Shown: one piece after another, positions 11,058 through 26,043 of the stretch
How positions within the stretch are numbered: the stretch's first letter is position 1
How the letters are laid out: every line of letters begins with the position of its first letter
Source: Desulfuromonadales bacterium
Lineage (GTDB): Bacteria > Desulfobacterota > Desulfuromonadia > Desulfuromonadales > BM103
DNA length: 64,000 bases
Assembly: GCA_014860225.1 (NCBI GenBank)
Contig: JACZKE010000036.1
Location: 1 to 64,000 of the forward strand
Direction of reading: 5' to 3'
The notes under the pieces: generated by a model
Seen by the model: the letters and a program-made list of their open reading frames with translations, nothing else
What the model was told of the DNA's origin: nothing
Database searches by the model: none
Translations under genes and position numbers: made by a program

Positions 11058-11285
11058 CTATTTCTTGTTGACAATCTGATGATGTCCGCAGCTTTCACAT
11101 GTGAAGGCTGATTTCTCGCCCTCTTCCTTCGCTGCATCGCTAAAACGATCATGGTAGTCAACGTTGGCACTTCCTTGAAGTTGCTCACGCACCTTGACGA
11201 TATCATTTGGATGGCCGCAGCTGGTGCAAACAAAAGCCGACTTTTCCTGCAACTCTTTAGAAGCTTCGGAAATACGATCTTTCAT
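11058..11285 (-). CDS. Small double zinc-ribbon protein, function unknown
   Basis: A 75-aa protein built from an internal duplication: each half has a charged helix followed by KSAF(V/T)C(T/E)SCGH. The two CxxC knuckles could together form one zinc ribbon or bind metal between subunits. The start at 11285 is supported by gaaaggag 7 nt upstream. I do not recognise a named family. It is convergent with recQ; no operon partner is evident. Being small, acidic/basic and cysteine-paired it could be a nucleic-acid-binding or redox accessory protein, but nothing proves this. Confidence 0.7.
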   Translation of the reverse strand: MKDRISEASKELQEKSAFVCTSCGHPNDIVKVREQLQGSANVDYHDRFSDAAKEEGEKSAFTCESCGHHQIVNKK

Positions 11286-11414
11286 GACTGTTCTCCTTTC
11301 CACGTTCCGCTCAAACTAACCACTTAAAATGCGTTGTTACCCTTGTGAGTATCCTGGAGGGACGTATTCTTTTTTTTAAGTATATCATGGTATGCGTATT
11401 TTCAGGAGATTCGC

Positions 11415-11515: not shown

Positions 11516-13255
11516 ATGGAACGAAAATTCTTTGAGCAGAAGGGTCGTTGGTGGGCTGCTGCAATACTTGGCGTTACGTTGATTCTGTTTTCGGTTACGG
11601 CGTATGCAGCGGCAATCATTGAAGGCGAACGAATGACCCCTGTTCCGGGGAAAGAGGGGATGGTTGTGACCAGCCATTTTCTTGCCACCGAAACCGCCTT
11701 GGAGGTTCTGCAAAAAGGTGGGAACGCAATTGATGCCGCGGTTACAGCCGCCTTTTCGTTGGCGGTCATTCAGCCCCGTTCAGGCAATATCGGTGGTGGT
11801 GGCTTTATGCTGATCTCCTCCGAAAAGCGCAATGACGTCATCGCCATCGATTACCGTGAAAAGGCCCCGAGCCAGGCATCCGTCGACATGTTTCTCAATC
11901 AGGAGGGTAAAGCGGATAGCGAAGTATCGCGGTATTCACATCTGGCGGCGGGAGTCCCCGGAACGGTGGCTGGACTGGCCATGGCATTAGCTGAATATGG
12001 CACCATCAGCCTACAGGAGGCTGTGTCTCCTGCCATCAGATTGGCAGAGGAAGGGTTTATCGTTACTCCGCGCTTCAGTGACGGGCTCAAAGAGAAGGAG
12101 AAGATACTGAAAAGATGGGATTCCACAAGAAAGATATTCTATAAGGTTGATGGCAGTTATTACGAACCAGGGGATCTCTTTGTGCAGAAAGATCTTGCGG
12201 CGACCTTGAGGCGAATCGCTGAAAACGGGGTACAAGAGTTCTACGAAGGTAAGACCGCCGCACTGCTTGTTGCGGAAATGGCTAAACATGGTGGCCTGAT
12301 TACTCTGGCGGATATGCAGAATTACACTCCGGTGATCAGGATGCCCGTTCATGGCACCTATCGGGGGTATGACATCTACTCCATGCCGCCACCCAGTTCG
12401 GGCGGGGTTCACCTGGTGCAGATTCTCAACATCCTGGAAGGTTATCCGATCCCGGACCATGGCCATAACTCGGCAAAAACCATTCATCTGATGGCAGAGG
12501 CGATGAAGCTGGCCTATGCCGACCGCTCATTTCACCTCGGGGATGAGGATTTTGTCAAAGTCCCTTTGAAAAGGCTCGTTTCCAGGGAATATGCAACCTC
12601 CCTCCGCCAGAGAATAGATCCCGAAAAGGCGACGCCAAGCAGTACCATCAGCCCGGGCAAGCTTAACCCCTGCGAGAGCAATGAAACGACCCATTTTTCC
12701 ATCGTCGACAAGTTCGGCAATGCAGTTTCGAACACCTATACCATCAACTTCAGTTACGGTTCAGGAATTGTGGTTGAGGGTGCCGGTTTCCTGCTGAATA
12801 ACGAGATGGACGATTTTTCGGCGAAGCCAGGAGTGCCCAATGCCTATGGCCTGATCGGCGGCGAAGCAAACAGGATTGAGCCGAACAAGCGGATGCTCAG
12901 CTCTATGTCCCCAACCATTGTCAAGCAGGGTGAGAGAAACTACCTGGTGACCGGCAGCCCTGGCGGTTCGAGGATCATTACCACGACACTGCAGGTGATC
13001 ATGAACGTCATCGATCATGGCCTGAATGTCCAAAGTTCGGTCACTGCTCCAAGAATCCATCATCAGTGGCTCCCTGATGAACTTCGGATCGAAGAAGGTC
13101 TCAGTCCTGATACTATCAAGATTCTTCAGAACAATGGGCATAACGTGAAACAGGAAGCGGCCATGGGAGCCATACAATCGGTTTTAATCAAGAACGGTAT
13201 GATGTATGGCGCTGCAGACCCTCGTAGATCAACTGCCCTTGCCGCGGGACTCTGA
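11516..13255 (+). CDS. ggt: Gamma-glutamyltranspeptidase precursor
   Basis: A 579-aa periplasmic enzyme that hydrolyses or transfers the gamma-glutamyl group of glutathione and related peptides. It has an N-terminal signal sequence (hydrophobic about 13-30, AYA-A). The pro-enzyme cleaves itself before the nucleophile Thr at residue 391 in TTHFSIVD; GNIGGGGFM, the substrate-binding MPPPSSGG and GSPGGSRI near the C-terminus are all intact. Length is typical (about 580 aa). It begins after gaggaaatt and is monocistronic, convergent with the kamA operon. Confidence 0.95.
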   Translation: MERKFFEQKGRWWAAAILGVTLILFSVTAYAAAIIEGERMTPVPGKEGMVVTSHFLATETALEVLQKGGNAIDAAVTAAFSLAVIQPRSGNIGGGGFMLISSEKRNDVIAIDYREKAPSQASVDMFLNQEGKADSEVSRYSHLAAGVPGTVAGLAMALAEYGTISLQEAVSPAIRLAEEGFIVTPRFSDGLKEKEKILKRWDSTRKIFYKVDGSYYEPGDLFVQKDLAATLRRIAENGVQEFYEGKTAALLVAEMAKHGGLITLADMQNYTPVIRMPVHGTYRGYDIYSMPPPSSGGVHLVQILNILEGYPIPDHGHNSAKTIHLMAEAMKLAYADRSFHLGDEDFVKVPLKRLVSREYATSLRQRIDPEKATPSSTISPGKLNPCESNETTHFSIVDKFGNAVSNTYTINFSYGSGIVVEGAGFLLNNEMDDFSAKPGVPNAYGLIGGEANRIEPNKRMLSSMSPTIVKQGERNYLVTGSPGGSRIITTTLQVIMNVIDHGLNVQSSVTAPRIHHQWLPDELRIEEGLSPDTIKILQNNGHNVKQEAAMGAIQSVLIKNGMMYGAADPRRSTALAAGL

Positions 13256-13325
13256 TCGAGGCAAGACATGATGTGTCAAAGCCACACCGAAATGAAGAGA
13301 CAGACTGCAAGGTCTCTAAAAACGG

Positions 13326-14432
13326 TTAGCAATCGCCGGAAATCTCCCTTGGCGCATTGACCACCCGCCGGGCTGGCTCTGCTGGAACCACCGGAGCGAC
13401 GTTGGCGTAGCGGAAGGTTTCACCGAGGTAGTTCTTCAGCACGACTTCTTCGCCAAGGCTCTGCAAATAGTCGGGCAGGATAGGAATCTTGCCGCCGCCG
13501 CCGGGGGCGTCGATGACATAGGCCGGCACGCCGAGTCCCGAGGTGTGGCCCCGCAGAGCGCGGATGATCTCGATCCCTTCCTCGACGCTGGTGCGAAAAT
13601 GATCGGTCCCCTGAACCATGTCGGCCTGGTAGATGTAATAAGGGCGCACACGAATGGCAAGCAGCTTCTGCATCAGACGCTTCATGACCTCCGGATCGTC
13701 GTTGACGCCGCGTAGCAGCACGGTCTGGTTGCCAAGTGGAATGCCGGCGTCTGCCAGGCGGGCGCAGGCTTTTGCCGAGGTCTCGGTGATCTCGTCAGGG
13801 TGGTTAAAGTGCGTGTTGAGGTAAAGCGGCGGATACTTGCGCAGAACGCGGATCAGCCCCATGGTGATGCGCTGCGGCAGCACCACCGGGATACGGCTGC
13901 CGATGCGGATGATCTCGATGTGCTGGATCGCCCGCAGTTCCTTGAGGATCCAGTCCAGTTTCTCGTCAGAGAGCAACAACGGGTCGCCTCCCGAGACGAT
14001 GACGTCACGAATCTCGGAATGCGCCCGCAGGTAGTCGAGCCCCCGTTCAATAGTCTCACGATTGACCAGCATGTTCTCTCCGCCGACTTTGCGTTTGCGG
14101 GTGCAGAAGCGGCAGTACATGGCGCACTCGGAGCAGACCAGAAACAGCGCCCGGTCAGGATAGCGATGCACCAGGTTGGGTACCGGGCTCTGGTTCTCCT
14201 CATCGAGCGGGTCGGCAGGGCAGACTGTATCCTGCAACTCCTGCTCGGAGGGAACCGCCTGGCGCCAGATCGGGCCATCGACGTTCTTGATAAGACTGAG
14301 ATAATACGGATTGACCCGCATCGGGTACTCTTCAACGACCTCTTCAAGAGGCCGCGGGTCGATGCCGTACTTGCGGGTCAGATCGCCGGGTTTGGTAATG
14401 CTGGCTTGCAGAAGTCTCTGCCATGTTTCCAT
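13326..14432 (-). CDS. kamA: Lysine 2,3-aminomutase (KamA family radical SAM enzyme)
   Basis: A 368-aa radical-SAM, PLP-dependent aminomutase that converts L-lysine to beta-lysine. The [4Fe-4S] motif is C103-x3-C107-x2-C110 (CAMYCRFC), the S-adenosylmethionine GGD is at about 148-150, and the PLP lysine is K315 in GGGGKIP. Sizes near 340 aa suggest EF-P modifying EpmB; 370-420 aa fits KamA proper. The start at 14432 is chosen because aaggag stands 9 nt before it; the longer frame (14474) would overlap the upstream gene. It is the last gene of a five-gene minus-strand operon with GNAT, two ATP-grasp ligases and a deacetylase fusion, which points to a beta-lysine-containing product, not lysine fermentation. 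Confidence 0.9.
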   Translation of the reverse strand: METWQRLLQASITKPGDLTRKYGIDPRPLEEVVEEYPMRVNPYYLSLIKNVDGPIWRQAVPSEQELQDTVCPADPLDEENQSPVPNLVHRYPDRALFLVCSECAMYCRFCTRKRKVGGENMLVNRETIERGLDYLRAHSEIRDVIVSGGDPLLLSDEKLDWILKELRAIQHIEIIRIGSRIPVVLPQRITMGLIRVLRKYPPLYLNTHFNHPDEITETSAKACARLADAGIPLGNQTVLLRGVNDDPEVMKRLMQKLLAIRVRPYYIYQADMVQGTDHFRTSVEEGIEIIRALRGHTSGLGVPAYVIDAPGGGGKIPILPDYLQSLGEEVVLKNYLGETFRYANVAPVVPAEPARRVVNAPREISGDC

Positions 14433-14457
14433 CGCTGATTTTCTCCTTGGTCCGCGA

Positions 14458-14922
14458 TCAGAATCGTTTGACATAGGTCAGGCGGTCATCGCCAGTCTTA
14501 TAAAAGTCACGGATGCACGACTCTTCAACATAGCCCGCCTGTTCGTAAAATTTCCGGGTCCGCACATAGCCGCCCTGCGATGAGGTTTCCAGGCAGAGCA
14601 AGCGGCCGCCACGCTGGCGAACCTGCTCCTCGACGTGCTTCATCAGACGTCGGCCAATGCCGCTTCCCTGACTGGTGGGGCTGACGGCAATCCAGTACAG
14701 ATCGTAGTTGCCTTCGGTCAATGGCACCGGCCCGAACAGGGCGTAGCCGGCCACATGATCACCGATATCGGCGACAGCGACTTCATAATCCTGCTGATTT
14801 GGGTCGTTGAGAACCGTCTCAAGCAGTTCGAGGGCAATGGCCACTTCAGCATCGGTGAAGGATCCGGTTGCCACCAGAATCTCTTCAAGCAGGGGGATGT
14901 CATCGTGTCTCAGTTTGCGCAT
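14458..14922 (-). CDS. GNAT family N-acetyltransferase
   Basis: A 154-aa single-domain GNAT. The acetyl-CoA pyrophosphate loop is QGSGIGRRL (residues about 91-99), preceded by the beta strand DLYWIAVSP and followed by FYEQAGY, the standard C-terminal GNAT motif. The ATG at 14922 follows tgaggtt; an upstream TTG (14928) is less likely. It lies between kamA (25 nt downstream) and an ATP-grasp gene (11 nt upstream), so it is translated from the same mRNA. By context it might acetylate beta-lysine or the ligated product, comparable in role, not in size, to AblB of N-epsilon-acetyl-beta-lysine synthesis. That is inference. Confidence 0.85.
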   Translation of the reverse strand: MRKLRHDDIPLLEEILVATGSFTDAEVAIALELLETVLNDPNQQDYEVAVADIGDHVAGYALFGPVPLTEGNYDLYWIAVSPTSQGSGIGRRLMKHVEEQVRQRGGRLLCLETSSQGGYVRTRKFYEQAGYVEESCIRDFYKTGDDRLTYVKRF

Positions 14923-14933
14923 AATCAATAACC

Positions 14934-15932
14934 TCAGTTCTTACGTTTGCTGGCCATAGCCAGAATGCGGGCGATCAGCTGCGGGTAGCTTAACCTGGCT
15001 GCCCGGGCACTGCGGGCCAGGCCCGCATCGGGGCTGATGTCCGGGTTGGCATTGACTTCCAGAATATAGGGAACACCGTCGCGCAGGCGGAAATCGATGC
15101 GTGCATAATCGCGGCATTCGAGGAGTTTGTAGGCCCTTAAGGCCACATCGCGCACCAGCATTTCATAGCGCATTTTCAGCGGGGCCGGGCAGACCGGTTC
15201 AGTCAGCTTGTATTGCTGCGACTTCTCGAGCCACTTGCCCTCAAAGCTGACAATCGGCTGGGCCAGGTCAGGGTGGAACGTGATTTCGGAAAGCGGCAGC
15301 ACTTCATGGGGACCATTGCCGATGATGGCGGCGTTGATCTCCCTGCCCAGGATGAACTCCTCAATCAGAGCGCCCTGGTGATAGGTACGATGAACATAGT
15401 TGATGCGTGCCAGCAATGCTTTCTCGTTGTCAACCACGCTTTCGTTGGAGATTCCCTGTGAGGCATCTTCCCAGCGCGGCTTGACGATCAGCGGATAGGC
15501 CATGTCCTTGACACGTGAATAATGTTCGCCGGGCTTGACCAGAGTGTATTTCGGCGTCGGTAACTGATGCCTGGAGAGGAGGTCCTTGGTCCGCGCCTTG
15601 TCCTGGGACAGGCCGAGCGACAGCGGTGGAGCTCCGGTGTAGGTGAGACCGAGCAGATCGAAGAGCGCGGCAACGTGCATCTCTTTGCGGCTCTCGCCCC
15701 AGAAAGCTTCACAGAGGTTGAAAGCCAGGTCGGGCTGCAGGCGGCGCAGTTCGGCGGCAAAGGTCGCGATGTCATCGCCCAGGGGAACAAGCAAGGGCTT
15801 GTGGCCGAGCTCGATCAGAGCAGCGGCAACGGCCCGGGCCTCCTGCTCGGCTCCTTCTTCGGCAATGCGGTCAATCGCTTCACCGCGCGTGGCTGAGGGC
15901 GGTACGAGGTTAAAGCATACGGCAACGTTCAT
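14934..15932 (-). CDS. ATP-grasp ligase A, D-Ala-D-Ala-ligase-like
   Basis: A 332-aa ATP-grasp enzyme. The N-terminal domain (1-100) has FNLCEAFWGE, the equivalent of the substrate-binding loop of D-Ala-D-Ala ligases; ATP-grasp signatures follow: YPLIVKPRWEDASQGI (about 147-162), LIEEFILGREI and the metal-binding DFRLRDG..YILEVNANPD near residues 280-300. It would form an amide or peptide bond through an acyl-phosphate. It overlaps the second ATP-grasp gene by 23 nt and is about 35-40% similar to it by eye. Real cell-wall Ddl enzymes sit with mur genes; here the neighbours are kamA and acetyltransferases, suggesting a different amino-acid substrate. Confidence 0.85.
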   Translation of the reverse strand: MNVAVCFNLVPPSATRGEAIDRIAEEGAEQEARAVAAALIELGHKPLLVPLGDDIATFAAELRRLQPDLAFNLCEAFWGESRKEMHVAALFDLLGLTYTGAPPLSLGLSQDKARTKDLLSRHQLPTPKYTLVKPGEHYSRVKDMAYPLIVKPRWEDASQGISNESVVDNEKALLARINYVHRTYHQGALIEEFILGREINAAIIGNGPHEVLPLSEITFHPDLAQPIVSFEGKWLEKSQQYKLTEPVCPAPLKMRYEMLVRDVALRAYKLLECRDYARIDFRLRDGVPYILEVNANPDISPDAGLARSARAARLSYPQLIARILAMASKRKN

Positions 15933-16989
15933 TGCTTACCCCCGCAGGCAATGCAAGCCGCGCACAGGCGGCATCAACAACCGCCAGGATCATTTCGTCA
16001 TATGAGAGGCCGACAGCTCTGGCCGCCTTGGGGAAACAGCTGTTCTGTTCCGGGCGGGGCAGGATGCCGGGAAGGGGATTAAGCTCAATCACCTGCGGGC
16101 GTCCCTTGGCATCGAGGCGCACATCGATGCGGCACCAGTCGCGGCAATCGAGGGCACGGAAGGCCGCCTTGCAAAGTTCCTCGATCTGCAGCCGCAGCAG
16201 CGGTTCGAGCGCGGCCGGGCAGGAGAAGATCTGCAGTGGATCCTCCTCCTGATCCCAGAGCCACTTGGCTTCGTAGGAATAGATCGGCTGAACACCTGCC
16301 GGCAGGGTGTCAAAGTTGATTTCGACAATCGGCAGCACGGTCAGGTCGTTGCCGTTGCCGATCAGGGCAACGGTGAACTCACGGCCGGGAAGGAACTCTT
16401 CAATCAAGGCGGACTGATGGTAGGTATTGAGTACCCATTCCAGCTGACAGACCAGCTCGTGACGATTCCGGACCAGGGCCTTGTCGGTGACTCCCTTACT
16501 GGAACCTTCGAGGGTGGGTTTGACTATCAGCGGGTAGCGCAGCCGCGCAGGGATTTCTGCCAGCGAGTTGACCACGGTGAAACCCGGTGTAGCGACACCG
16601 TGCTGGGCGAGAATTTCCTTGGTGCGACGTTTGTCGAGACAGAGGCCAAGAGTCAGCGGGTCGCTGCCGGTGTAAGGAATTCCAAGCATATCCAGTATTG
16701 CCGGAATCTGTGCTTCACGACTGGCGCCGTGCAGCCCTTCGGCAATATTGAAGACCAGATCGGGACGGAGCTTGCGGTAGATTTCGAAAGCGTCGAGATC
16801 AGCTTCGACCAGGGTGACCTGGTGGCGTGACGCCAGGGCCGCTTCCACCGCCTTGATGGTGTGAATATCATCCCACTCGGCGAAAAGGTCGTCGGACGGT
16901 AAGTCGGGAGGTTCGGAGGGAGGCTCAGCCGGTTCTTCCATAAGACCGACTGCATCTCCCTTCAGATTGAAGGAAAGCGCGATATGCAT
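15910..16989 (-). CDS. ATP-grasp ligase B, D-Ala-D-Ala-ligase-like
   Basis: A 359-aa paralogue of the preceding ligase. Motifs: FNIAEGLHGASREAQ in the N-terminal substrate loop, GIPYTGSDPLTLGLCLDK, the ATP-binding YPLIVKPTLEGSSKGV, LIEEFLPGREF, and the metal site DVRLDAKG..VIELNPLPG. An insertion rich in Pro and Glu (about 17-36) is specific to this copy. Its 3' end overlaps ligase A, so the pair is translationally coupled. Two adjacent, diverged ligases could add two different residues in turn or make a heteromer. A 261-nt gap separates it from the deacetylase gene upstream; that G+C-rich leader has hairpins but no riboswitch I could identify. Confidence 0.85.
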   Translation of the reverse strand: MHIALSFNLKGDAVGLMEEPAEPPSEPPDLPSDDLFAEWDDIHTIKAVEAALASRHQVTLVEADLDAFEIYRKLRPDLVFNIAEGLHGASREAQIPAILDMLGIPYTGSDPLTLGLCLDKRRTKEILAQHGVATPGFTVVNSLAEIPARLRYPLIVKPTLEGSSKGVTDKALVRNRHELVCQLEWVLNTYHQSALIEEFLPGREFTVALIGNGNDLTVLPIVEINFDTLPAGVQPIYSYEAKWLWDQEEDPLQIFSCPAALEPLLRLQIEELCKAAFRALDCRDWCRIDVRLDAKGRPQVIELNPLPGILPRPEQNSCFPKAARAVGLSYDEMILAVVDAACARLALPAGVSNERCRML

Positions 16990-17250
16990 GTGTTAACCCC
17001 TAAAAAAAGCCAGCAGCGTAATGGTTACCTTCCAAGAGGAAGGGGCGATGGCGTCTTCAGGGCCGGTTAGCCTTGCGGCTTGCGGCTGGTTAAAGGGGTT
17101 AACTTTTTCAGCGGGCATGTCTTTGGGTCCCGGCCCCTGAACGCCAGTCAATTTATCGACATATACGCCTGCGTTTTTTAGTTGTCAACAAGAAAATTTA
17201 TAATAAAAAAACATTAACTATTACAGTTACTTGTAAAGCGACAAGGCAAG

Positions 17251-19047
17251 TTACACACCGAAGGAAGCAGCCCATATTCCGGTAAAGAAATTACGGGCAT
17301 TGCCGCCGATGCTGCGGGTGCGGTAGCCGCCTTCCTGAACCAGCAAAGTTGGTAGTTTCATGCGACCGATGGCCTGGCCGATCTGGTTGAAATCGCCACC
17401 ATTGAGTCCCCAGGTTCCGGTAGGGTCGCCCTTGGCTGTGTCGAAGCCAACACAGACCACCAGATAATCCGGTTTAAAGCGCGCAACGCGTTTGAGTGCT
17501 TTGCCGAGTGCAAACAAGTATTGCTCGCTGGTGATTTGTTCGGCGAGCGGCAGGTTCATATTGAAACCGACGCCTTCGGCTTCGCCGGTTTCATCCTCGA
17601 AGCCGCTGAAATAGGGGTAGGCAAAGCGCGGATGGCCATGGATTGAAACTGTCAGCACGTCGCTGCGTTTGTAGAAAATGACCTGCTGGCCGTTGCCGTG
17701 ATGATAGTCGATATCGAGTATCGCCACGCGGCCGAAGTCAGAGAGCATCTGCGCGGCAATCGCGGCGTTGTTGAAGTAACAGAAGCCGCCGAAGGCACGG
17801 CGTTCAGCGTGGTGTCCCGGCGGGCGCACCAGGGCATAGGCTAACCGGTAGCCTTCGAGGATCGTGGCCGCGGCGGTCAAGGAGCAATCGACGGCACCCT
17901 TGGCGGCTTTCCAGGCGTTGGCATTCAGTGGCGTGAAGGTGTCGATGCAGAAATATCCGGCCCGCACGGCCAACTCTTTAGGTGGTCGGGCGCTGTTGCG
18001 TATGGGGAAGACATAGGGGTAGATCGATTGCCCGGCCGGCAAGTTGTGGCAGACCTTGCGAAAGTACTCGACGTAGTCACGATCGTGGGTGCTGGTGAGA
18101 AACCGCTCCGAGTAGGTACGCGGCGGGTATTGCTGAAACAGGGAGGTTTTATCGAGCTCCCGGAGAATACTCCGTACCCGGACCGGAGCCTCGACATACC
18201 CGCGTTCGCGGACATGATGGATTTCGTGCCGCTCATTAACGACCAGGGCGATACGCTGTTGGCGTGAAGCGCTGGGGCGCGTTTCAGCAGCCGGCTTCTT
18301 GCGATAGCGAGGGGCGCGCAGGCGAACCGGGTCGTCAACGAAAGAGGCCACGACTCGATCGATGTACTCAGGCGAACAGAGGTTGCCGTAACGCAATTCG
18401 AGGATCGTCCTGACGATCCTGCGTGCCGTCGCACAAGGCAAAGGTGCGGATTGACCAAGGGCGTCGAAGACCAGGTAGGGCGGGTTGTCATCACCCTCTT
18501 TGACCGGCGTCTCGTAAGCGGTACCAACGATCGGGAAGGCCCCGTATTTTTCGTAGAATTTGAGGCGTGCCTGGTTCTGCTTGAGAATCTCTGGGTCTTT
18601 GCATAGCGCCGGGTCGTCCGGCAGGCACTCGAAGAAGATGCCGATGGCGCCCATGGCTGTGGCCTCTTCGCGGACGTGCTCGTAGAGGGCGCCGCCGATG
18701 CCACCGCCGGTGGTGCGTTTGGCGGCGGAGATGTAATCAAGGAAACAGAATCTCAGATCAGCTTCATGGGAAATCAAGGCAAAACCCTGGATTCTCTGGC
18801 GGGCGTTTTCAGCGACGTAGAGGATCGATTTCATCCCTTGCTTGAGTTGGTTGCGCAGCAGTTCGGGGATCTTGTCGATGTCGCTCTGGGCGAGCAACGG
18901 GAACTGGTCTCGGAGGATCTGCTGAACCTGGCTGATGGCTGTCTGGTTGACCGGGCGCAGGTCATCGTGAATGCGGCGGATACGAAACATGTCAGTACCT
19001 TGTCGGGTCATCAGCACGGTCGCATTGCGCGACATGTGTGCACCCAT
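17251..19047 (-). CDS. GNAT acetyltransferase fused to acetylpolyamine amidohydrolase/class II HDAC-like deacetylase
   Basis: A 598-aa two-domain protein. Residues about 20-200 form a GNAT-like domain (CFLDYISA, then GGGIGGALYEHV as the acetyl-CoA loop, FYEKYGAFPI). Residues about 260-598 are a zinc deacetylase: RPPGHHAE with the catalytic His pair, DIDYHHGNG with two zinc ligands, VGFDTAKGD with the third Asp, and EGGYRTRSIG with the transition-state Tyr. Length and motifs of the second half match acetylpolyamine amidohydrolases. One protein thus carries opposite activities: acetyl addition and removal. It is the first gene of the operon with two ligases, GNAT and kamA. The start is weakly supported; ATGs follow at codons 5 and 13. 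Confidence 0.85.
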   Translation of the reverse strand: MGAHMSRNATVLMTRQGTDMFRIRRIHDDLRPVNQTAISQVQQILRDQFPLLAQSDIDKIPELLRNQLKQGMKSILYVAENARQRIQGFALISHEADLRFCFLDYISAAKRTTGGGIGGALYEHVREEATAMGAIGIFFECLPDDPALCKDPEILKQNQARLKFYEKYGAFPIVGTAYETPVKEGDDNPPYLVFDALGQSAPLPCATARRIVRTILELRYGNLCSPEYIDRVVASFVDDPVRLRAPRYRKKPAAETRPSASRQQRIALVVNERHEIHHVRERGYVEAPVRVRSILRELDKTSLFQQYPPRTYSERFLTSTHDRDYVEYFRKVCHNLPAGQSIYPYVFPIRNSARPPKELAVRAGYFCIDTFTPLNANAWKAAKGAVDCSLTAAATILEGYRLAYALVRPPGHHAERRAFGGFCYFNNAAIAAQMLSDFGRVAILDIDYHHGNGQQVIFYKRSDVLTVSIHGHPRFAYPYFSGFEDETGEAEGVGFNMNLPLAEQITSEQYLFALGKALKRVARFKPDYLVVCVGFDTAKGDPTGTWGLNGGDFNQIGQAIGRMKLPTLLVQEGGYRTRSIGGNARNFFTGIWAASFGV

Positions 19048-19203
19048 CCACTGTTCTTATACGCTGATTTTGACAGCTGTCAACACGTGCCGCTCGATGG
19101 TACGTCTTCCTGCTTTTTCCGCGTGCCACGGATTGGCATTAGACGCGCCCATTTCGCTTCGCAGCTGAATGTATGAGCTTGCGTAACTGCCGCGTTGGTG
19201 CGC

Positions 19204-19237
19204 AAAAAGGCGGAGCCTCCGCAGCTCCGCCTTTTTG
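19204..19237. terminator. Bidirectional intrinsic terminator
   Basis: AAAAAGGCGGAGC pairs perfectly with GCTCCGCCTTTTT around a 7-nt loop, so either strand gives a strong stem followed by U residues. It insulates the deacetylase operon (minus, starting 19047) from minus-strand transcription of the upstream small gene. Confidence 0.85.
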
Positions 19238-19328
19238 TTAATGTTGATGCACTCGTACAAGCCATGTGCTGGCAAGAAAAAAGTCCGACCTATGTTATGA
19301 CGTTGACTTCAAACTGCCGGATCAATGG

Positions 19329-20256: not shown

Positions 20257-21270
20257 TCAGCAAATGCGCGGCAGCTGTTCTCCGGCGAGCATTTCAATCG
20301 CACGCAGTCCGCCTATGCTTGTCTGCAGCCGGACCTTGCCTGCGGCCGTCGAGGTCACTTCGCCGATGATTGCTGCTTGCTTACCGTATACATGGGTCTG
20401 CATGATACCAAGAGCCAGCCCGGCTGCTTCGGGGGCGACAAATGCCAGCAACTTGCCTTCGTTGGCAACGAACAGTGGATCAAGACCGAGAATGGCACAC
20501 GCCCCACTGACGGCAGGATTAACAGGGAGGGCTGTCTCCTGCAGGATGATCTCGACCCGGGATTGCAAAGCAATTTCCTTGAGAGTGGTAGCGACACCGC
20601 CCCGGGTTGGATCGCGCAGAGTGTGCAGTTGACTGCCCAACTGTTCGACCAGTCTCATGACCATGCTGTTGAGCGGTGCGCTGTCGGTGGTAATTCCGCT
20701 CTCCAGCTGCAACCCTTCGCGACTGGCCAATATAGCCATACCGTGATCGCCGATGGTGCCGTTGATCAGAATTTTATCGCCGACTTGTGCATTGCTGCCC
20801 GAGATCTGCAGATCATGGTCGATGACACCGATGCCAGAGGTGTTGATAAAAATCTTGTCAGCCTTGCCGCGTGGCACCACCTTGGTATCACCGGTGACGA
20901 TTGCCACTTCGGCCTGCCGGGCTGCCGCACGCATGCTCTCCAGGATTTCCCGGAGATCATTGATAGCCAGCCCTTCTTCGATAATCAGGCCGACGCTGAT
21001 GGCGATCGGTCTGGACCCGGCCATGGCCAGGTCATTGACCGTACCGTGGATTGCCAGGTCGCCAATATTGCCACCAGGGAAAAAGATCGGATCAACCACG
21101 TAGGAGTCAGTGGTAAAGGCCAGACGACCATTCTGTGCGGCAAGTACGGCGGCATCATTCTGGTCACGTTGACTGATTCCGGACAGGGTCGGCACGATCA
21201 GCTTATCGAGAAGTTCGTGGCTGAGCTTGCCGCCGCTGCCGTGGCCGAGCAGGATGATGTCGGATTTCAT
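20257..21270 (-). CDS. hypE: Hydrogenase maturation protein HypE
   Basis: A 337-aa HypE of the PurM/ThiL fold, which dehydrates an S-carboxamide on its own C-terminal cysteine to the thiocyanate used for the CN ligand of [NiFe]-hydrogenase. The protein starts ILLGHGSGGKLSHEL, has the ATP-site DSYVVDPIFFPGGNIG and DPTRGGVATTL, and ends in ...LPRIC with the required terminal Cys. It is the last gene of hypABCDE on the minus strand. A 219-nt gap holding a structured repeat separates it from hypD. Neither HypF nor any hydrogenase subunit is in this window. Confidence 0.96.
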   Translation of the reverse strand: MKSDIILLGHGSGGKLSHELLDKLIVPTLSGISQRDQNDAAVLAAQNGRLAFTTDSYVVDPIFFPGGNIGDLAIHGTVNDLAMAGSRPIAISVGLIIEEGLAINDLREILESMRAAARQAEVAIVTGDTKVVPRGKADKIFINTSGIGVIDHDLQISGSNAQVGDKILINGTIGDHGMAILASREGLQLESGITTDSAPLNSMVMRLVEQLGSQLHTLRDPTRGGVATTLKEIALQSRVEIILQETALPVNPAVSGACAILGLDPLFVANEGKLLAFVAPEAAGLALGIMQTHVYGKQAAIIGEVTSTAAGKVRLQTSIGGLRAIEMLAGEQLPRIC

Positions 21271-21343
21271 TTAAGCTCCCGTGAACCTTTCTTTGGCTTC
21301 TGCTCTCTAGTGTCCATCCGGAAACTCCGGGATGCACGACCGC

Positions 21344-21486
21344 AGTTTTCGATCTGGAAACGAGCAATTTTTCGCAAGGTCAAGGAAATCAAGGATTTGA
21401 GCGGAGGCGTAGTTCTTTACGCCGCACAATCAAATCCGCCGATTGACGCAGAGATTGCGGAAAAGGGCCGTTTCCGGACGAAAACT
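21344..21486. repeat. Structured repeat family 1, full copy A
   Basis: A 143-bp imperfect palindrome between hypD and hypE, starting 2 nt after the hypD stop. Nested stems: AGTTTTCG/CGAAAACT, GGAAACG/CGTTTCC, TTTTTCGCAA/TTGCGGAAAA, GATTTGA/TCAAATC and the apical GCGGaGGCGTA/TACGCCGC. It matches the copy at 38517-38655 in its apical part and in scattered outer segments, with compensatory changes in the stems. Confidence 0.85.
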
Positions 21487-21488
21487 CT

Positions 21489-22580
21489 CTAGCCACCGTA
21501 CTTGTATTCCGCCGCACAGGTTCCTTCGCTCGAAACCATACAGGCGCCAACCGGGTCCTCGGGCGTACAGACCGTGCGGAAGAGTGGGCAGTCATTCGGG
21601 CGGACCTTCCCCTTGAGAATCTCTCCGCAGAGGCAGCCCTGGTGTTCCATGGAAGTTTCGATTTCAACCGGCAACCGGCGAGCCGCGTCAAAGCGATAAT
21701 ATTCCGGACGCAATTGCAAGCCACTGTCGGGGATGTCGCCAATGCCTCTCCAGTGGGCATCGCAGGGTTCGAAGACCTGGTAAAGAATATTACGGGCCTT
21801 AAGGTTGCCTTCCGGTTTGACGACACGGCGATACTGGGTTTCAACCCGGGCTTCACCAGCGACCACCTGGCGAGCCAGCATCAGCACGCCTTGAAGCACA
21901 TCCAGGGGTTCAAACCCGGTGACCACGCATGGGACCCGGTAAGCGCTCACCAGGGGTTGATAAGCGTTGGCGCCAATGATGGCAGAGACATGTGCCGGGC
22001 AAAGATAACCGTCAACCTGCAGCTCCGGGTCGCCGGCGAGGGCAGCCATGGGGCCAGGCATGGTTTTGTGTGAGCAGAGGATGTAAAAGTTGTTGAGGCT
22101 CTTCCGGGCGGCGGTAAGTACGGCTGCAGCAACGGTTGGTGCTGTGGTTTCAAAACCGACGCCGAGAAAAATCACATCGCTGTCCGAATTTTTTTCTGCA
22201 AGCGTCACAGCATCGAGTGGTGAATAGACGATCCTGATCGTTGCGCCTTTGGCCTGCTCCTGAAGCAGGTTGGACGAAGAGCCGGGAACGCGCACCATGT
22301 CTCCGAAGGTCGCGATGATGGTGTCCGGTCGCCGGGACAGGGCGACGGCCTGATCGACATAACCGACCGGAGTAACGCAGACCGGGCAACCGGGGCCTGA
22401 GATCAGCCTTACCTGCTCCGGCAGCAGCGAGCGGATACCGTGCTGATAGATCGCCATGGTATGGGTTCCGCACACTTCCATGAAGGTGATGGTTCGGTCG
22501 CAACCGGTGACAGTCCGGCGAATTGCCTGCAACTGCACTCTGGCCAGATCGGGGTCGCGGTATTCGTGCTGATGCTTCAT
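21489..22580 (-). CDS. hypD: Hydrogenase maturation protein HypD
   Basis: A 363-aa HypD, the scaffold that with HypC assembles the Fe(CN)2CO unit. Conserved motifs are present: FMEVCGTHTMAI near residue 34 with the Fe-binding Cys, ISGPGCPVCVTP (about 60-71), GFETTAPT, and the C-terminal cysteine cluster that binds a [4Fe-4S] cluster (GCLCGEIL, then CPLFRTVC, ending ...GTCAAEYKYGG). Its ATG overlaps the hypC stop (ATGA), so the two are translationally coupled, in line with their stable complex. Confidence 0.96.
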   Translation of the reverse strand: MKHQHEYRDPDLARVQLQAIRRTVTGCDRTITFMEVCGTHTMAIYQHGIRSLLPEQVRLISGPGCPVCVTPVGYVDQAVALSRRPDTIIATFGDMVRVPGSSSNLLQEQAKGATIRIVYSPLDAVTLAEKNSDSDVIFLGVGFETTAPTVAAAVLTAARKSLNNFYILCSHKTMPGPMAALAGDPELQVDGYLCPAHVSAIIGANAYQPLVSAYRVPCVVTGFEPLDVLQGVLMLARQVVAGEARVETQYRRVVKPEGNLKARNILYQVFEPCDAHWRGIGDIPDSGLQLRPEYYRFDAARRLPVEIETSMEHQGCLCGEILKGKVRPNDCPLFRTVCTPEDPVGACMVSSEGTCAAEYKYGG

Positions 22581-22807
22581 TCAGGCATCAGTCCCAAATC
22601 GAGAGCTTCGCGCAATGCCTGCAAGGTCAGTTGTGCTTCGCCCTCGTCAATCTTTTCGATCGCAAAGCCGGCGTGAATCAGCACGTAGTCGCCAACCTGT
22701 ACATCGTCAATCATCATCAGGCTGGCCTCGCGCTGTACACCGTCGATTTCACAGACGGCCATGTCGTTGGCGATGGTTTTGACCTGCATGGGGACACCTA
22801 AGCACAT
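22577..22807 (-). CDS. hypC: Hydrogenase maturation chaperone HypC
   Basis: A 76-aa HypC/HybG-type chaperone. It begins MCLGVPMQV; Cys2 is the residue that binds the Fe(CN)2CO precursor and the hydrogenase large subunit. The conserved AxGxxxxVxxxLV pattern is seen as GDYVLIHAGFAIEKID. The ATG at 22807 follows caaggag 7 nt upstream. A longer frame (to 22855) runs through a repeat and is not coding. It overlaps hypD by 4 nt. Confidence 0.96.
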   Translation of the reverse strand: MCLGVPMQVKTIANDMAVCEIDGVQREASLMMIDDVQVGDYVLIHAGFAIEKIDEGEAQLTLQALREALDLGLMPE

Positions 22808-22830
22808 GCGTTTGCTCCTTGGGTTTTTTA

Positions 22831-22870
22831 ACGCCCGTTCGCTTCGCTCACTCAAGACTCAAAGAAAATC
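22831..22870. repeat. Repeat family 2, partial copy
   Basis: ACGCCCGTTCGCTTCGCTCACTC is identical to 40153-40175 between nifK and nifD and is followed by a similar aagac-tCaaAGA segment. Here it lies between hypB and hypC. Only the left part of the longer element at 40147-40246 is present. Confidence 0.7.
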
Positions 22871-22890
22871 CGGAAAATTTGCAGTTTTAA

Positions 22891-23631
22891 TCATGCTTGC
22901 ATCCGCTTGCGCTCGATCCCCGCATGCAGCCAGTCATACCATGCCGTCATGCCTTCGCCGCTATGGCAGGAGAGCTCGATGATTTCGATGCGCGGGTTAA
23001 CCTGACGGGCAAAGGCCTTGCACTGTTGCAGATCGAAGCGCAAGTAGGGAAGCAGATCGATCTTGTTGATCAGCATCAACTCAGCGGCCTGGAACATCTG
23101 TGGATATTTGAGCGGTTTGTCCTCACCTTCGGTCACGGAAAGCACCACCACCTTGTGGTCTTCACCGAGATCAAAAGAGGCCGGGCAGACAAGGTTGCCG
23201 ACATTTTCGATCATCAGGATATCGGTTGCCGGCAGGTCGAAGTCATCAACGCCATGACCGACCATGTGAGCATCGAGGTGACAGCCTGTGCCGGTGTTGA
23301 TCTGTTTAACCGGCACGCCGGTAGCGGCAATGCGATCGGCATCGTTGCTTGTCTGTTGGTCGCCTTCAAGGACGGCAAAGTCGATTTTATCCTTGAGATC
23401 GCTCAGGGTTCGTTCCAGTACCGAGGTTTTTCCCGAGCCCGGTGAACTGACGAGGTTCAGAACCAGAAGCTGCCCGGCAGCAAAGCGTATCCGGTTGTTG
23501 GCGGCAAGTCTGTTGTTCTTGGCAAGCAGGTCTTCCTCTACGCGAATTGTGCGCGAGGTCTTCTCATCATGCTTATGATCGTGATGATGAAGGCTGCCGG
23601 GGTCGGTACTACAGCCGCAGTCAATGCACAT
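22891..23631 (-). CDS. hypB: Hydrogenase/urease nickel-incorporation GTPase HypB
   Basis: A 246-aa SIMIBI-class GTPase that inserts nickel into [NiFe]-hydrogenase. The N-terminus MCIDCGC is the high-affinity metal site (CxxCGC), followed by a short His-rich stretch (HHHDHKHD). P-loop: SSPGSGKTS; metal-binding switch residues in [20 protein letters not shown] as the guanine motif. The start at 23631 is chosen because the CxxCGC motif should be at the extreme N-terminus; the hypA stop lies immediately upstream, so the genes are coupled. Confidence 0.96.
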
Positions 23632-23632
23632 A

Positions 23633-23974
23633 TCAATCAATCTCCATCTCGGTAAATTTCATCTCCTGTCCCTGAACGGTTTCCAGAGCCAGGCTGCCAC
23701 AGCGCGGACAGGTATATGTCAGGGTTTCCAGCTCAGACTCTCCATGACATTCGAGGCAGCGGCCGCGACCGGCGATGTGCAGGACTTCAAGGCGGGCACC
23801 GTCAGCCATGGTTCCCCTGCTGCAGACATCAAAGGCAAACTCCACAGCGTCGGCAGAAACTCCGGATAAGGCACCGATTTCCACGGTGATACTTCGGATT
23901 GCCACAGCATTCTCGCGGTGGGCATGTTCAATTGCAAGCTCAACGATACTTTGGGTAAGACTGAGTTCGTGCAA
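23633..23974 (-). CDS. hypA: Hydrogenase nickel-incorporation protein HypA
   Basis: A 113-aa HypA. The N-terminal [12 protein letters not shown] contains the nickel ligands (Met1, His2, Glu3), and the zinc site is two CxxC pairs (CLEC about residue 73, CPRC about residue 89). It delivers nickel together with HypB, encoded next. First gene of the hypABCDE operon on the minus strand. I see no sigma-54 element in the short gap upstream. Confidence 0.95.
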
Positions 23975-24063: not shown

Positions 24064-24870
24064 TCAACCAATGCTTCCCAGGCTGGCCAGAGCAGCCACG
24101 CCTTGCAAGCAAGGCGTCTGTGAGCTCAGACACATCAGCGCATTTGATCCCAATTTAGTAAAACCGCTACTTTGCAAGCACGTCTCTATACCGGCAGAAG
24201 CCAGCACATCTGTCAACAGTCCAGTTCCCGCAGGAGTTTTCGCCAGGGCTTGCTGCAGCGTTGAACGGTTCTGCTGCGAGTAACGCAGAGGCGCAAGCCA
24301 GGGGCCTAACTGCCAACCCGATGCTGACGGCTGGAGCAGAGCCATGTTTTTATCCGAACCACAGATTTCAGCCTGATTCGCAAGTAGCGACAGTAGGACC
24401 GCTCGGGATTCTCCCCAGCAGCTCCGATCCAGGTCGATCAACTCCGCCATGGCAACCTGCCCGGATAATTTCAGAAGCCCTTGTCCTCGGCCGCACCAGC
24501 GATCGACGCGGTCGATAGTTACAAAACCGCGACGCTGGTAAATAGGCAAGCCAGTTTCTGAAGCCGTCAGCCATATCCGTTGCAAGCCTGCCTGGCGCAA
24601 CAGAGCAAGAGCAAAATCAAACAGAGCAGCCCCATACCTCTGGCCCCGATGCTCAGACCCAACCAGCAGGTTGCCGATCCAGCCGCTCTCTTCGTAAGCA
24701 ACGGCTGAGACAAACCCGGTTACTTTCCCTTCTGCGCGCAAAACAAAAAAACTGCGTCGCCACTGGTCCTGAAACAAGCGTAGCTCTTGAGAAGAGATTG
24801 TCCAGCCCTCGGTGGCAGCCCACTTCAGGAACAGTTGCCAGTCGGAGTTGTTCAGTGGCAGGAACTGCAT
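24064..24870 (-). CDS. GNAT family acetyltransferase, coupled to nifV
   Basis: A 268-aa protein with a GNAT domain in residues about 1-130 (VAYEESGWIGNLLVGSEHRGQRYG as the acetyl-CoA region, then IYQRRGFV), and a second half resembling the Acetyltransf_18-type extension (GWQLGPWLAPL...). The ATG at 24870 shares one base with the nifV stop (TGATG), so it is translated directly after homocitrate synthase. The longer frame starts inside nifV and is unlikely. Family known, substrate unknown. Its tight coupling to nifV behind a nif-type attenuator suggests it is made under nitrogen-fixing conditions. Confidence 0.8.
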   Translation of the reverse strand: MQFLPLNNSDWQLFLKWAATEGWTISSQELRLFQDQWRRSFFVLRAEGKVTGFVSAVAYEESGWIGNLLVGSEHRGQRYGAALFDFALALLRQAGLQRIWLTASETGLPIYQRRGFVTIDRVDRWCGRGQGLLKLSGQVAMAELIDLDRSCWGESRAVLLSLLANQAEICGSDKNMALLQPSASGWQLGPWLAPLRYSQQNRSTLQQALAKTPAGTGLLTDVLASAGIETCLQSSGFTKLGSNALMCLSSQTPCLQGVAALASLGSIG

Positions 24871-25997
24871 CAGGCCACCTGACAAAGGCATAGCAGTTCC
24901 CGGTCATTCAGTGCCCGCTTTCTGGCTTGGCAAGCAGTACGGACCCTGTGCAGCAAAGTGTCGATATCAATTGTCTGTAGATCGACGTCTAGCAGTTGCA
25001 GGCGTTGTCTTAAACCATGGCTGCCGGAATGTTTACCGATCACCATATGTCGGCTCAGGCCGACCTCGGCCGGATCGTAGCCTTCGTAGTTGCCGGGAAA
25101 CTTGAGGACACCGTCAGCATGCAGTCCGGACTCGTGCGAGAAGACCCTCTCGCCAACCACGGCCTTCCACTCGGGGACGGGACGGCCGCTGGCTTTCCCT
25201 ACCAGCTTTGACAGTTCGACAAAGCGCCCGGTGTCGATCCTCAGATCGATACCGCAGGCATGCCTCAGCGCCATCACGACCTCTTCGAGTGCCGCATTGC
25301 CGGCCCGCTCACCCAGCCCATTGACTGTCGTATTGACGAATTTCGCTCCGGCACGGACACCGGCAATCGCATTGGCCGTCGCCATACCCAGGTCATTATG
25401 GGGATGGATCTCAAGGTCGAGGTCGACCTGGTCTGCCAGGTAGCGGATCTTGTCATAAGTCGTGAAGGGATCGAGGACGCCGAGGGTGTCGCAAAAGCGG
25501 AAGCGATCAGCTCCCAGGCTCCGGGAGATTTCCATCAGTTCGACCAGAAAGACGGGATCGGCCCGGCTGGCGTCCTCACCACCGACGGAGACATAAAGAT
25601 TGTGGCGCTTGGCAAAACCGAGCGCCGTCTTAAGTTGCTCCTTGACCCAGGCACGGCTCTTGCGCAGCTTGTGCTCGATATGGATGTCGGAGACCGAAAG
25701 AGAGATGTCAACTGAGCCGACACCGCTGTCGATTGAGGCCTGAATGTCTGTGATCACAGCCCGGTTCCAGGTAAGCAGGCGGGCATTCAGGCCCAGATCG
25801 ACAAGCGCCTTGACTGAGGCCTGCTCCTCCTTGCCCATCGCCGGAATACCGCACTCCAGCTCACCGACACCGACTTCGTCGAGCATCTTTGCGATACGCT
25901 TTTTCTCGTCGAGACTGAAAACCACCCCGGCCGTCTGTTCGCCGTCGCGCAGGGTGGTGTCGTCGATAATGATTTCTGTGCAGGTCTGTTCCATCAT
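24870..25997 (-). CDS. nifV: Homocitrate synthase NifV
   Basis: About 375 aa; condenses acetyl-CoA and 2-oxoglutarate to R-homocitrate, the organic ligand of FeMo-co. LeuA/NifV-type barrel motifs: DDTTLRDGEQTAGVVF (metal and substrate site), GVGELECGIPAMG, LEIHPHNDLGMATANA with the metal-binding HxH region, and NTTVNGLGERAGNAAL. Near the C-terminus, SHESGLHADG is conserved. Of three clustered ATGs, 25997 has ggag at the right distance. It heads a minus-strand unit whose leader (to about 26247) carries a sigma-54 promoter, an ANTAR-like attenuator and a repeat. Confidence 0.94.
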   Translation of the reverse strand: MMEQTCTEIIIDDTTLRDGEQTAGVVFSLDEKKRIAKMLDEVGVGELECGIPAMGKEEQASVKALVDLGLNARLLTWNRAVITDIQASIDSGVGSVDISLSVSDIHIEHKLRKSRAWVKEQLKTALGFAKRHNLYVSVGGEDASRADPVFLVELMEISRSLGADRFRFCDTLGVLDPFTTYDKIRYLADQVDLDLEIHPHNDLGMATANAIAGVRAGAKFVNTTVNGLGERAGNAALEEVVMALRHACGIDLRIDTGRFVELSKLVGKASGRPVPEWKAVVGERVFSHESGLHADGVLKFPGNYEGYDPAEVGLSRHMVIGKHSGSHGLRQRLQLLDVDLQTIDIDTLLHRVRTACQARKRALNDRELLCLCQVA

Positions 25998-26043
25998 GAT
26001 CATCTCCGTTAAAAAAGAACGGTTCTATAACCCAAAAGAAGGT

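Follow-up and report, generated by a model that had tools for sequence, protein, structure and literature searches.

The closest described relatives of the genes considered here each share part of their chemistry. The N-acetylglutaminylglutamine amide (NAGGN) system follows the idea of using a GNAT acetyltransferase together with an ATP-grasp enzyme to make a small acetylated amide, and it features an asparagine-synthase-like amidotransferase and an ATP-grasp-GNAT fusion. The ablA-ablB pair places a lysine 2,3-aminomutase beside an acetyltransferase; the prediction published for Pelobacter carbinolicus concerns ablAB (PMC3543383). We analysed a 64,000-nucleotide stretch of contig JACZKE010000036.1 from a Desulfuromonadales bacterium (the whole stretch is called the window below), in which five minus-strand genes encode a lysine 2,3-aminomutase of the KamA family, two ATP-grasp ligases (AG1 and AG2) that resemble D-alanine-D-alanine ligase (Ddl), a small GNAT N-acetyltransferase, and a protein in which a GNAT-like half is fused to a deacetylase (the fusion). 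We found no description of this five-gene set in the accessible parts of the open-access literature searched, PMC3543383 and PMC11532494 among it.

We predict, with moderate confidence, that the set encodes a conserved pathway whose product is a soluble amide of beta-lysine, the acetylation of which can be tuned. The basis for this reading is the integrity of the genes, their linkage, the catalytic residues of their products, the loss of Ddl residues from the two ligases, and the occurrence of the set in carriers that lack MurA and MurC. Such neighbourhoods may reportedly have been noted in the 2009 amidoligase survey of Iyer and colleagues. The features are as follows, with lengths in nucleotides (nt) or amino acids (aa).

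17251-19047, minus strand: GNAT-deacetylase fusion (HDACG), 598 aa as called; assigned from the open reading frame (ORF), Pfam, PDB sequence, structure model, fold search and residues
16990-17250, minus strand: intergenic stretch from the fusion gene to AG1, 261 nt
15910-16989, minus strand: ATP-grasp ligase 1 (AG1), 359 aa; Ddl-like fold, own clade
14934-15932, minus strand: ATP-grasp ligase 2 (AG2), 332 aa; own clade
14458-14928, minus strand: small GNAT N-acetyltransferase, 156 aa; relative of PDB 2R7H
13326-14474, minus strand: lysine 2,3-aminomutase (KamA family), 382 aa

Conservation and linkage of the five genes

The ORF listing gives all five genes as intact at these coordinates, in agreement with an earlier reading of the sequence by itself (the sequence-only reading), which described five co-directional genes, most of them overlapping or nearly so. 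AG1 overlaps AG2 by 23 nt, 5 nt separate AG2 from the small GNAT gene, and the latter shares 17 nt with the KamA gene. The fusion gene lies 261 nt upstream of AG1, so that four genes form a tight unit and the fifth stands apart from it. Its true start is probably Met20 (window position 18990), since the conserved part of the protein begins there. NCBIfam and Pfam scans recognise the KamA family, Dala_Dala_lig_C twice, GNAT and Hist_deacetyl. The 261-nt stretch might act as a separate leader for the four-gene unit; a consensus scan of 13200-19300 gave no promoter-like site on the minus strand (its three sites, against 2.6 expected by chance, are all on the plus strand), and no Rfam RNA, riboswitches included, matches the window at the gathering score.

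Conservation was measured in an order-level sample of 40 relatives and a phylum sample of 148 genomes. AG1 is present in 17 of the 40 relatives at E < 1e-150, and in the other 23 the best AG1 match is no better than the Ddl level (2e-33). At the 16 order-level loci from the other 16 AG1 genomes, AG2, GNAT and KamA adjoin AG1 without exception (at L019 a contig end cuts KamA). Thirteen of the 40 relatives carry an intact fusion, and all 13 fall within the 17 AG1 carriers. One genome without an AG1-level match (G023) contains the fusion as two separate matching pieces (C50:17925-18643), perhaps through decay after loss of the core. AG1-type matches occur in 48 of the 148 phylum genomes at E <= 4.2e-88, a threshold set above the onset of AG2 and partial matches (the tally is 54 at the looser 1e-50), and ten of the 11 phylum genomes with a full-length fusion have one. 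Fisher tests on such counts take no account of how closely the genomes are related.

A search of named genomes with the N-terminal half of the fusion found at least 544 relatives, of which 80 were kept. Desulfacinum infernum and Pelovirga terrestris are cultured organisms among the carriers. All five genes lie within one locus in 37 of these 80, and two further loci hold four genes on contigs that start inside AG2. By label the 37 loci belong to Chloroflexota (12), Thermodesulfobacteriota (9), Myxococcota (5, a doubtful label as all five are titled Deltaproteobacteria), Pseudomonadota (3), Calditrichota (2), Krumholzibacteriota (1) and Acidobacteriota (1), with four lacking a phylum, one of them titled KSB1; with the doubtful Myxococcota excluded they cover six labelled phyla plus KSB1 by title. 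The gene order varies greatly. With K for KamA, 1 and 2 for AG1 and AG2, g for GNAT and H for the fusion, it is K12gH in 14 loci, K12Hg in 12, H12gK in four, 12gKH in two, an arrangement with H inverted in two, and something else in three. Linkage that is kept through so much reshuffling is strong evidence for shared function, and chance is untenable because the conservation, which the sequence-only reading had left to be checked, reaches well beyond the genus.

The fusion stands apart from the other four genes in 41 loci, and 37 of these genomes were searched for AG1 (L106, L107, L120 and L125 were left out; the sample partly overlaps the order-level one). Of the 37, 33 have a match of AG1 type at E 1e-66 or below. 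The four core genes share a single other locus in 26 of these 33; that count includes two loci with a labelling complication, either an AG given the AG1 label a second time or an intruding deacetylase match. Gene fusions point in the same direction: AG1 and AG2 form a single ORF in L183 (688 aa) and L184 (672 aa), and in L042 (750 aa) and L043 (753 aa) the GNAT-deacetylase protein carries the small GNAT at its C-terminal end. We argue from these fusions that the joined parts act together. A further ATP-grasp arrangement is found in G034, which holds the full core set and also a second AG-type locus with a 715-aa ORF (L045:7592-9739) whose N-terminal half is 36% identical to AG1.

Judged by these sequence comparisons, the five genes behave as a functional unit. 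Its retention through rearrangement across phyla would imply that a metabolite so far unseen is common among sulfate reducers, Desulfuromonadales, Dehalococcoidia and other groups.

The ATP-grasp ligases, Ddl and the cell wall

AG1 and AG2 had been read as two diverged D-Ala-D-Ala-ligase-like ATP-grasp enzymes, and the double match to Dala_Dala_lig_C together with the tree bears this out: among 32 AG1, 31 AG2 and 11 Ddl sequences, each group occupies one side of a branch, with supports of 87, 99 and 100. The AG alignments comprise 31 of 37 AG1 and 30 of 36 AG2 sequences, each with the window's own added. The ATP-grasp catalytic residues of the ATP/Mg site (K215, R255, D257, E270 and N272) are kept in 63 of 63 AG rows. 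We take E15, S150, Y216, S281 and L282 to be the substrate residues of Ddl, and of these Y216 and L282 are lost in all 63 rows, so the two enzymes, with their separate clades, are no ordinary Ddl paralogues. Lack of conservation in other genomes and ordinary Ddl paralogy were the two outcomes that the sequence-only reading had named as refuting it, and it withstood both checks. The remaining positions distinguish the two ligases from one another. The S150 position is Ser or Thr in 32/32 AG1 and Ala or Gly in 31/31 AG2; Ser is kept at the S281 position in 32/32 AG1 and 8/31 AG2 (lost in 23/31); and the E15 column holds Glu in 12/32 AG1 and 0/31 AG2, a count that is unsure since AG1 has an invariant Glu (E38) one column off. 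In all 32 of its rows AG1 also has residues equivalent to the acceptor-site Ser and Arg of Ddl.

The structure model of AG1 (pLDDT 87.7) has DdlB as its best fold match, and in NCBIfam both ligases match mainly Ddl families, below the cut-offs, in the best 25 of 41 (AG1) and of 40 (AG2) rows. This fold and these matches are what would favour an account in which the AG enzymes serve peptidoglycan or another wall polymer, as Ddl paralogues or in a modified cross-bridge. We consider that account extremely improbable, given the separate clades, the altered substrate residues and a true ddl that the genome keeps in a cluster reading as mur/fts (L237; MurC there is confirmed). In addition, the MurA and MurC models both fail to reach their cut-offs in all 13 of 13 Chloroflexota carriers (11 of them have weak sub-cut-off matches to each); in the other carriers searched MurA is above cut-off in 5/5 and MurC in 4/5, and both models pass their cut-offs in 10 of 14 controls. 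Gaps in an assembly could conceal one gene, but the joint absence of MurA and MurC from 13 genomes can hardly be put down to them, and a wall component is therefore very unlikely as the product of the AG enzymes. On these grounds a peptidoglycan role was rejected. Both ATP-grasp enzymes are, by their sequences, not Ddl, and annotators should be warned that AG1 and AG2 match Ddl families mainly, yet are no cell-wall Ddl.

Aminomutase, acetyl chemistry and candidate products

The aminomutase has the residues expected for activity on lysine. Cys117, Cys121 and Cys124 of the CxxxCxxC radical SAM motif and the pyridoxal phosphate (PLP) lysine, Lys329, are invariant in nine of nine hand-picked aminomutases, in agreement with the earlier description of a KamA with intact Cys motif and PLP Lys. 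D285 and D322, kept in the same nine, occupy the alignment positions of D293 and D330 in 2A5H, a lysine 2,3-aminomutase of solved structure in which these two aspartates presumably bind the epsilon-amine. The protein passes the cut-off of the wider KamA family (324.4 against 199.2); its AblA equivalog score of 480.9 is the best among the KamA equivalogs but lies below the cut-off of 525.4. Three KamA relatives are found in the genome at E 1e-60 or better, namely the window's, one beside AblB, and one on C16; the set retains its own KamA although the genome also has AblA. The C16 relative (L238:4835-5800 of G000, about 322 aa) sits on a long branch of the KamA tree. In that tree window-type KamAs and AblAs share a supported fork (95; the root is drawn at the midpoint), while most cluster KamAs from Chloroflexota and from other deltaproteobacterial and mixed lineages make up two further groups. 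Because the tree spreads them over these groups (5 label changes), the cluster KamAs are not one clade. For lysine fermentation we checked PF09043, which has no match in six genomes, the window's among them, and none in any control either.

The fusion had been described as an acetyltransferase and a zinc deacetylase in one protein, and its domains agree with this. Its C-terminal half is closest, by sequence and by fold, to acetylpolyamine amidohydrolases (APAH). H412, H413, H449, D536 and Y575 are kept in 45 of 45 aligned rows (44 of 70 usable rows plus the window) and D447 in 44 of 45; we take these to supply the Zn ligands, the tandem His pair and the catalytic Tyr. We accordingly describe this half as a putative APAH-type zinc deacetylase. 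In the N-terminal half one Pfam GNAT model scores 0.1 bit above its cut-off and another falls below; the sole PDB match of the N-terminal 247 aa is the 'putative acetyl transferase' 1vkc (E 0.033). The whole protein has no NCBIfam match at E 0.001, and all 50 matches listed in its fold search are deacetylases. The two glycines of a GxG motif in this half, G116 and G118, do not vary across the 45 aligned rows, and the model of the half is mixed alpha/beta with pLDDT mostly 70-90. The structure models support the ligase and deacetylase folds and reveal no substrates. The small GNAT has six NCBIfam matches at E 0.001, and TIGR03827 (AblB) is not among them.

From these enzyme types we infer every substrate, the order of the steps, the product and its role. 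KamA would convert lysine to beta-lysine. AG1 and AG2, acting as a pair, would form one or two ATP-driven amide bonds that join beta-lysine to other small molecules, amines or amino acids. A free amine would be acetylated by the small GNAT, and the GNAT-deacetylase fusion would then set or reset the acetylation of a side-chain-like or polyamine-like amine. Both a polyamine-like conjugate and a compatible solute are conceivable products. A small acetylated amide containing beta-lysine, as proposed in the sequence-only reading, is still the best product class we can suggest. Its further proposal, that an acetyl group is put on and taken off as protection, fits the enzymes, including the GNAT-deacetylase-GNAT chains of L042 and L043, and is retained as a prediction.

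The same enzymes might instead modify a macromolecule, by EF-P-like beta-lysylation or by tagging a protein or tRNA; the fusion would then serve as a switch for lysine acetylation. In favour of such a role, EpmB is related to KamA, and RimK-type ATP-grasp ligases tag proteins. We nevertheless think it improbable: the EpmB equivalog score of the window's KamA, 259.7 bits against a cut-off of 369.3, is far below that for AblA, and the deacetylase is closest to the APAH type, which acts on small amines. The 40 largest neighbour groups, mostly unnamed and not searched for these proteins specifically, include no recognised EpmA or EF-P.

Neighbouring genes in other genomes suggest a polyamine link, which leads to a narrower form of the soluble-amide pathway. 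In four loci from four families (L192-L195) AG1 and AG2 follow a gene for pyruvoyl arginine decarboxylase, with the small GNAT present in three of the four. All four also have a gene of the deoxyhypusine-synthase type, although its match is weak in L193, and L192, L193 and L195 have one of the agmatinase type. The decarboxylase was found as a single copy within 1 kb of AG1 in seven of seven genomes of this type. Small GNAT and agmatinase make up one 497-aa ORF inside the five-gene set of L063 (11685-13178), and next to the set of L040, on the opposite strand, are genes for agmatinase, SpeA, and carboxynorspermidine synthase and decarboxylase. In this narrower form the partner that AG2 or AG1 joins to beta-lysine would be agmatine, putrescine or a triamine. 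The APAH-type domain, whose closest relatives act on acetylpolyamines, would work on a primary amine of the conjugate; the loss of S281 from 23 of 31 AG2 is compatible with an acceptor that has no carboxylate. Against this, AG1 has its Ser and Arg acceptor-site equivalents throughout, only a handful of the 167 loci (178 fetched, 11 duplicates dropped) have polyamine genes next to the set, none was seen beside it in the window, and the decarboxylase is absent from the window's genome and the two relatives searched. Counts of genes near to and far from the set in the 167 loci are weak tests here: 4 near and 0 far for the decarboxylase (p 0.039), 4 and 1 for agmatinase (p 0.13), and 3 and 1 for the deoxyhypusine-synthase type (p 0.23). 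We therefore offer a beta-lysine-polyamine or polyamine-like conjugate as a tentative candidate. Broader still, and in our view doubtful, is the idea that anaerobes from several phyla share a metabolite class made of beta-lysine and a polyamine or diamine, with a dedicated ATP-grasp pair and with charge tuned by an acetyltransferase-deacetylase chain. We also observed that a small MerR-like regulator precedes KamA in L231, L232, L233 and L235 (Pfam check for L232 only), in genomes whose AG pair is beside the arginine decarboxylase gene.

Several findings weigh against the soluble beta-lysine amide pathway as we propose it. The seven decarboxylase-type genomes have one KamA each, located away from AG1-AG2, so it is not certain that beta-lysine is the substrate of the ligases; the KamA of the five such genomes examined groups beside the cluster KamAs and not with AblA. 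Linkage is incomplete, in that 4 of the 37 unlinked fusion genomes have no AG1-type match better than 1e-66, in 7 of the 33 with a match no single fetched locus shows the complete four-gene core (two of the seven loci end at a contig edge), and one phylum-sample genome with the fusion (G111) has no AG1-type match at E 1e-50. The fusion is absent from 4 of the 17 AG1 carriers among the relatives and from 38 of the 48 in the phylum sample, and the four-gene core without it is common (for example L196-L200, L202-L206, L208 and L209); thus the deacetylase cannot be an obligatory step. Least secure of all is the assignment of the fusion's N-terminal half to the GNATs, for which the matches are weak.

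Finally, the set might make a compatible solute, a peptide-like cousin of N-epsilon-acetyl-beta-lysine, since KamA plus GNAT resembles ablA-ablB. The genome already has its own ablAB, with AblB on another contig beside another KamA, and for that reason, and because the small GNAT is not AblB, a plain duplicate of ablAB was rejected. AblB occurs in 18 of the 40 relatives and together with the set in nine, so the two co-occur freely. An apparent link to MscS genes (L055, L118 and L100) failed the near/far count in the fetched loci, with 6 near and 6 far (binomial p 0.46), and an osmolyte role argued from MscS linkage was dropped. Genes for MarC-family membrane proteins are found 7 near and 1 far (p 0.017), with seven of the eight in or adjoining the set; this link is weak because most cases share one Chloroflexota-type arrangement. 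These findings do not support the osmolyte part of the sequence-only reading in particular, and we rate a compatible solute as possible but rather unlikely.

Flanking genes and comparison with known systems

In the window a terminator-like hairpin (19222-19210) lies between the five-gene set and hydrogenase maturation genes (20257-23974), of which HypE was identified by NCBIfam, while its neighbours resemble HypD, HypC, HypB and HypA by eye. Beyond these, and also by eye, are a 275-aa ORF for a second, unrelated GNAT-type protein (24064-24891) and, beside it, a NifV/isopropylmalate-synthase-like ORF (24870-26003). On the other side the set adjoins a gamma-glutamyltransferase gene (11516-13255) that has no match across 27 scanned loci, and an 81-aa minus-strand ORF (11058-11303) has two similar cysteine-rich CxxCGH stretches and looks zinc-ribbon-like by eye.

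Each part of the proposed soluble-amide pathway has a known counterpart from which it departs. The set is like ablA-ablB in its pairing of aminomutase with acetyltransferase and in the supported KamA-AblA fork; it is unlike that pair in that its GNAT is not AblB and in its addition of two ligases and a deacetylase fusion. The NAGGN genes include, to our knowledge, no aminomutase and no APAH-type deacetylase and form a different gene set, and on that description we keep the two apart. AG1 and AG2 have in common with Ddl the fold and the ATP/Mg-site residues, and differ from it in their separate clades and in the loss of Y216 and L282, to which AG2 adds the changes at S150 (31/31) and S281 (23/31). 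The deacetylase domain resembles APAH: its top fold matches are 38-39% identical to it along the domain, msAPAH comes first by both sequence and fold, and the active-site residues are kept; what APAH lacks is the N-terminal GNAT-like half, and the second GNAT present in two loci. The small GNAT is close (E 2e-35 over query residues 4-152) to PDB 2R7H, a 'putative D-alanine N-acetyltransferase of GNAT family' whose structure is solved and whose function was guessed by name, and which we take to come, with its neighbourhood, from Desulfovibrio G20. With this solved close relative, and with enzyme classes that can be assayed, the question of what the set makes is directly testable.

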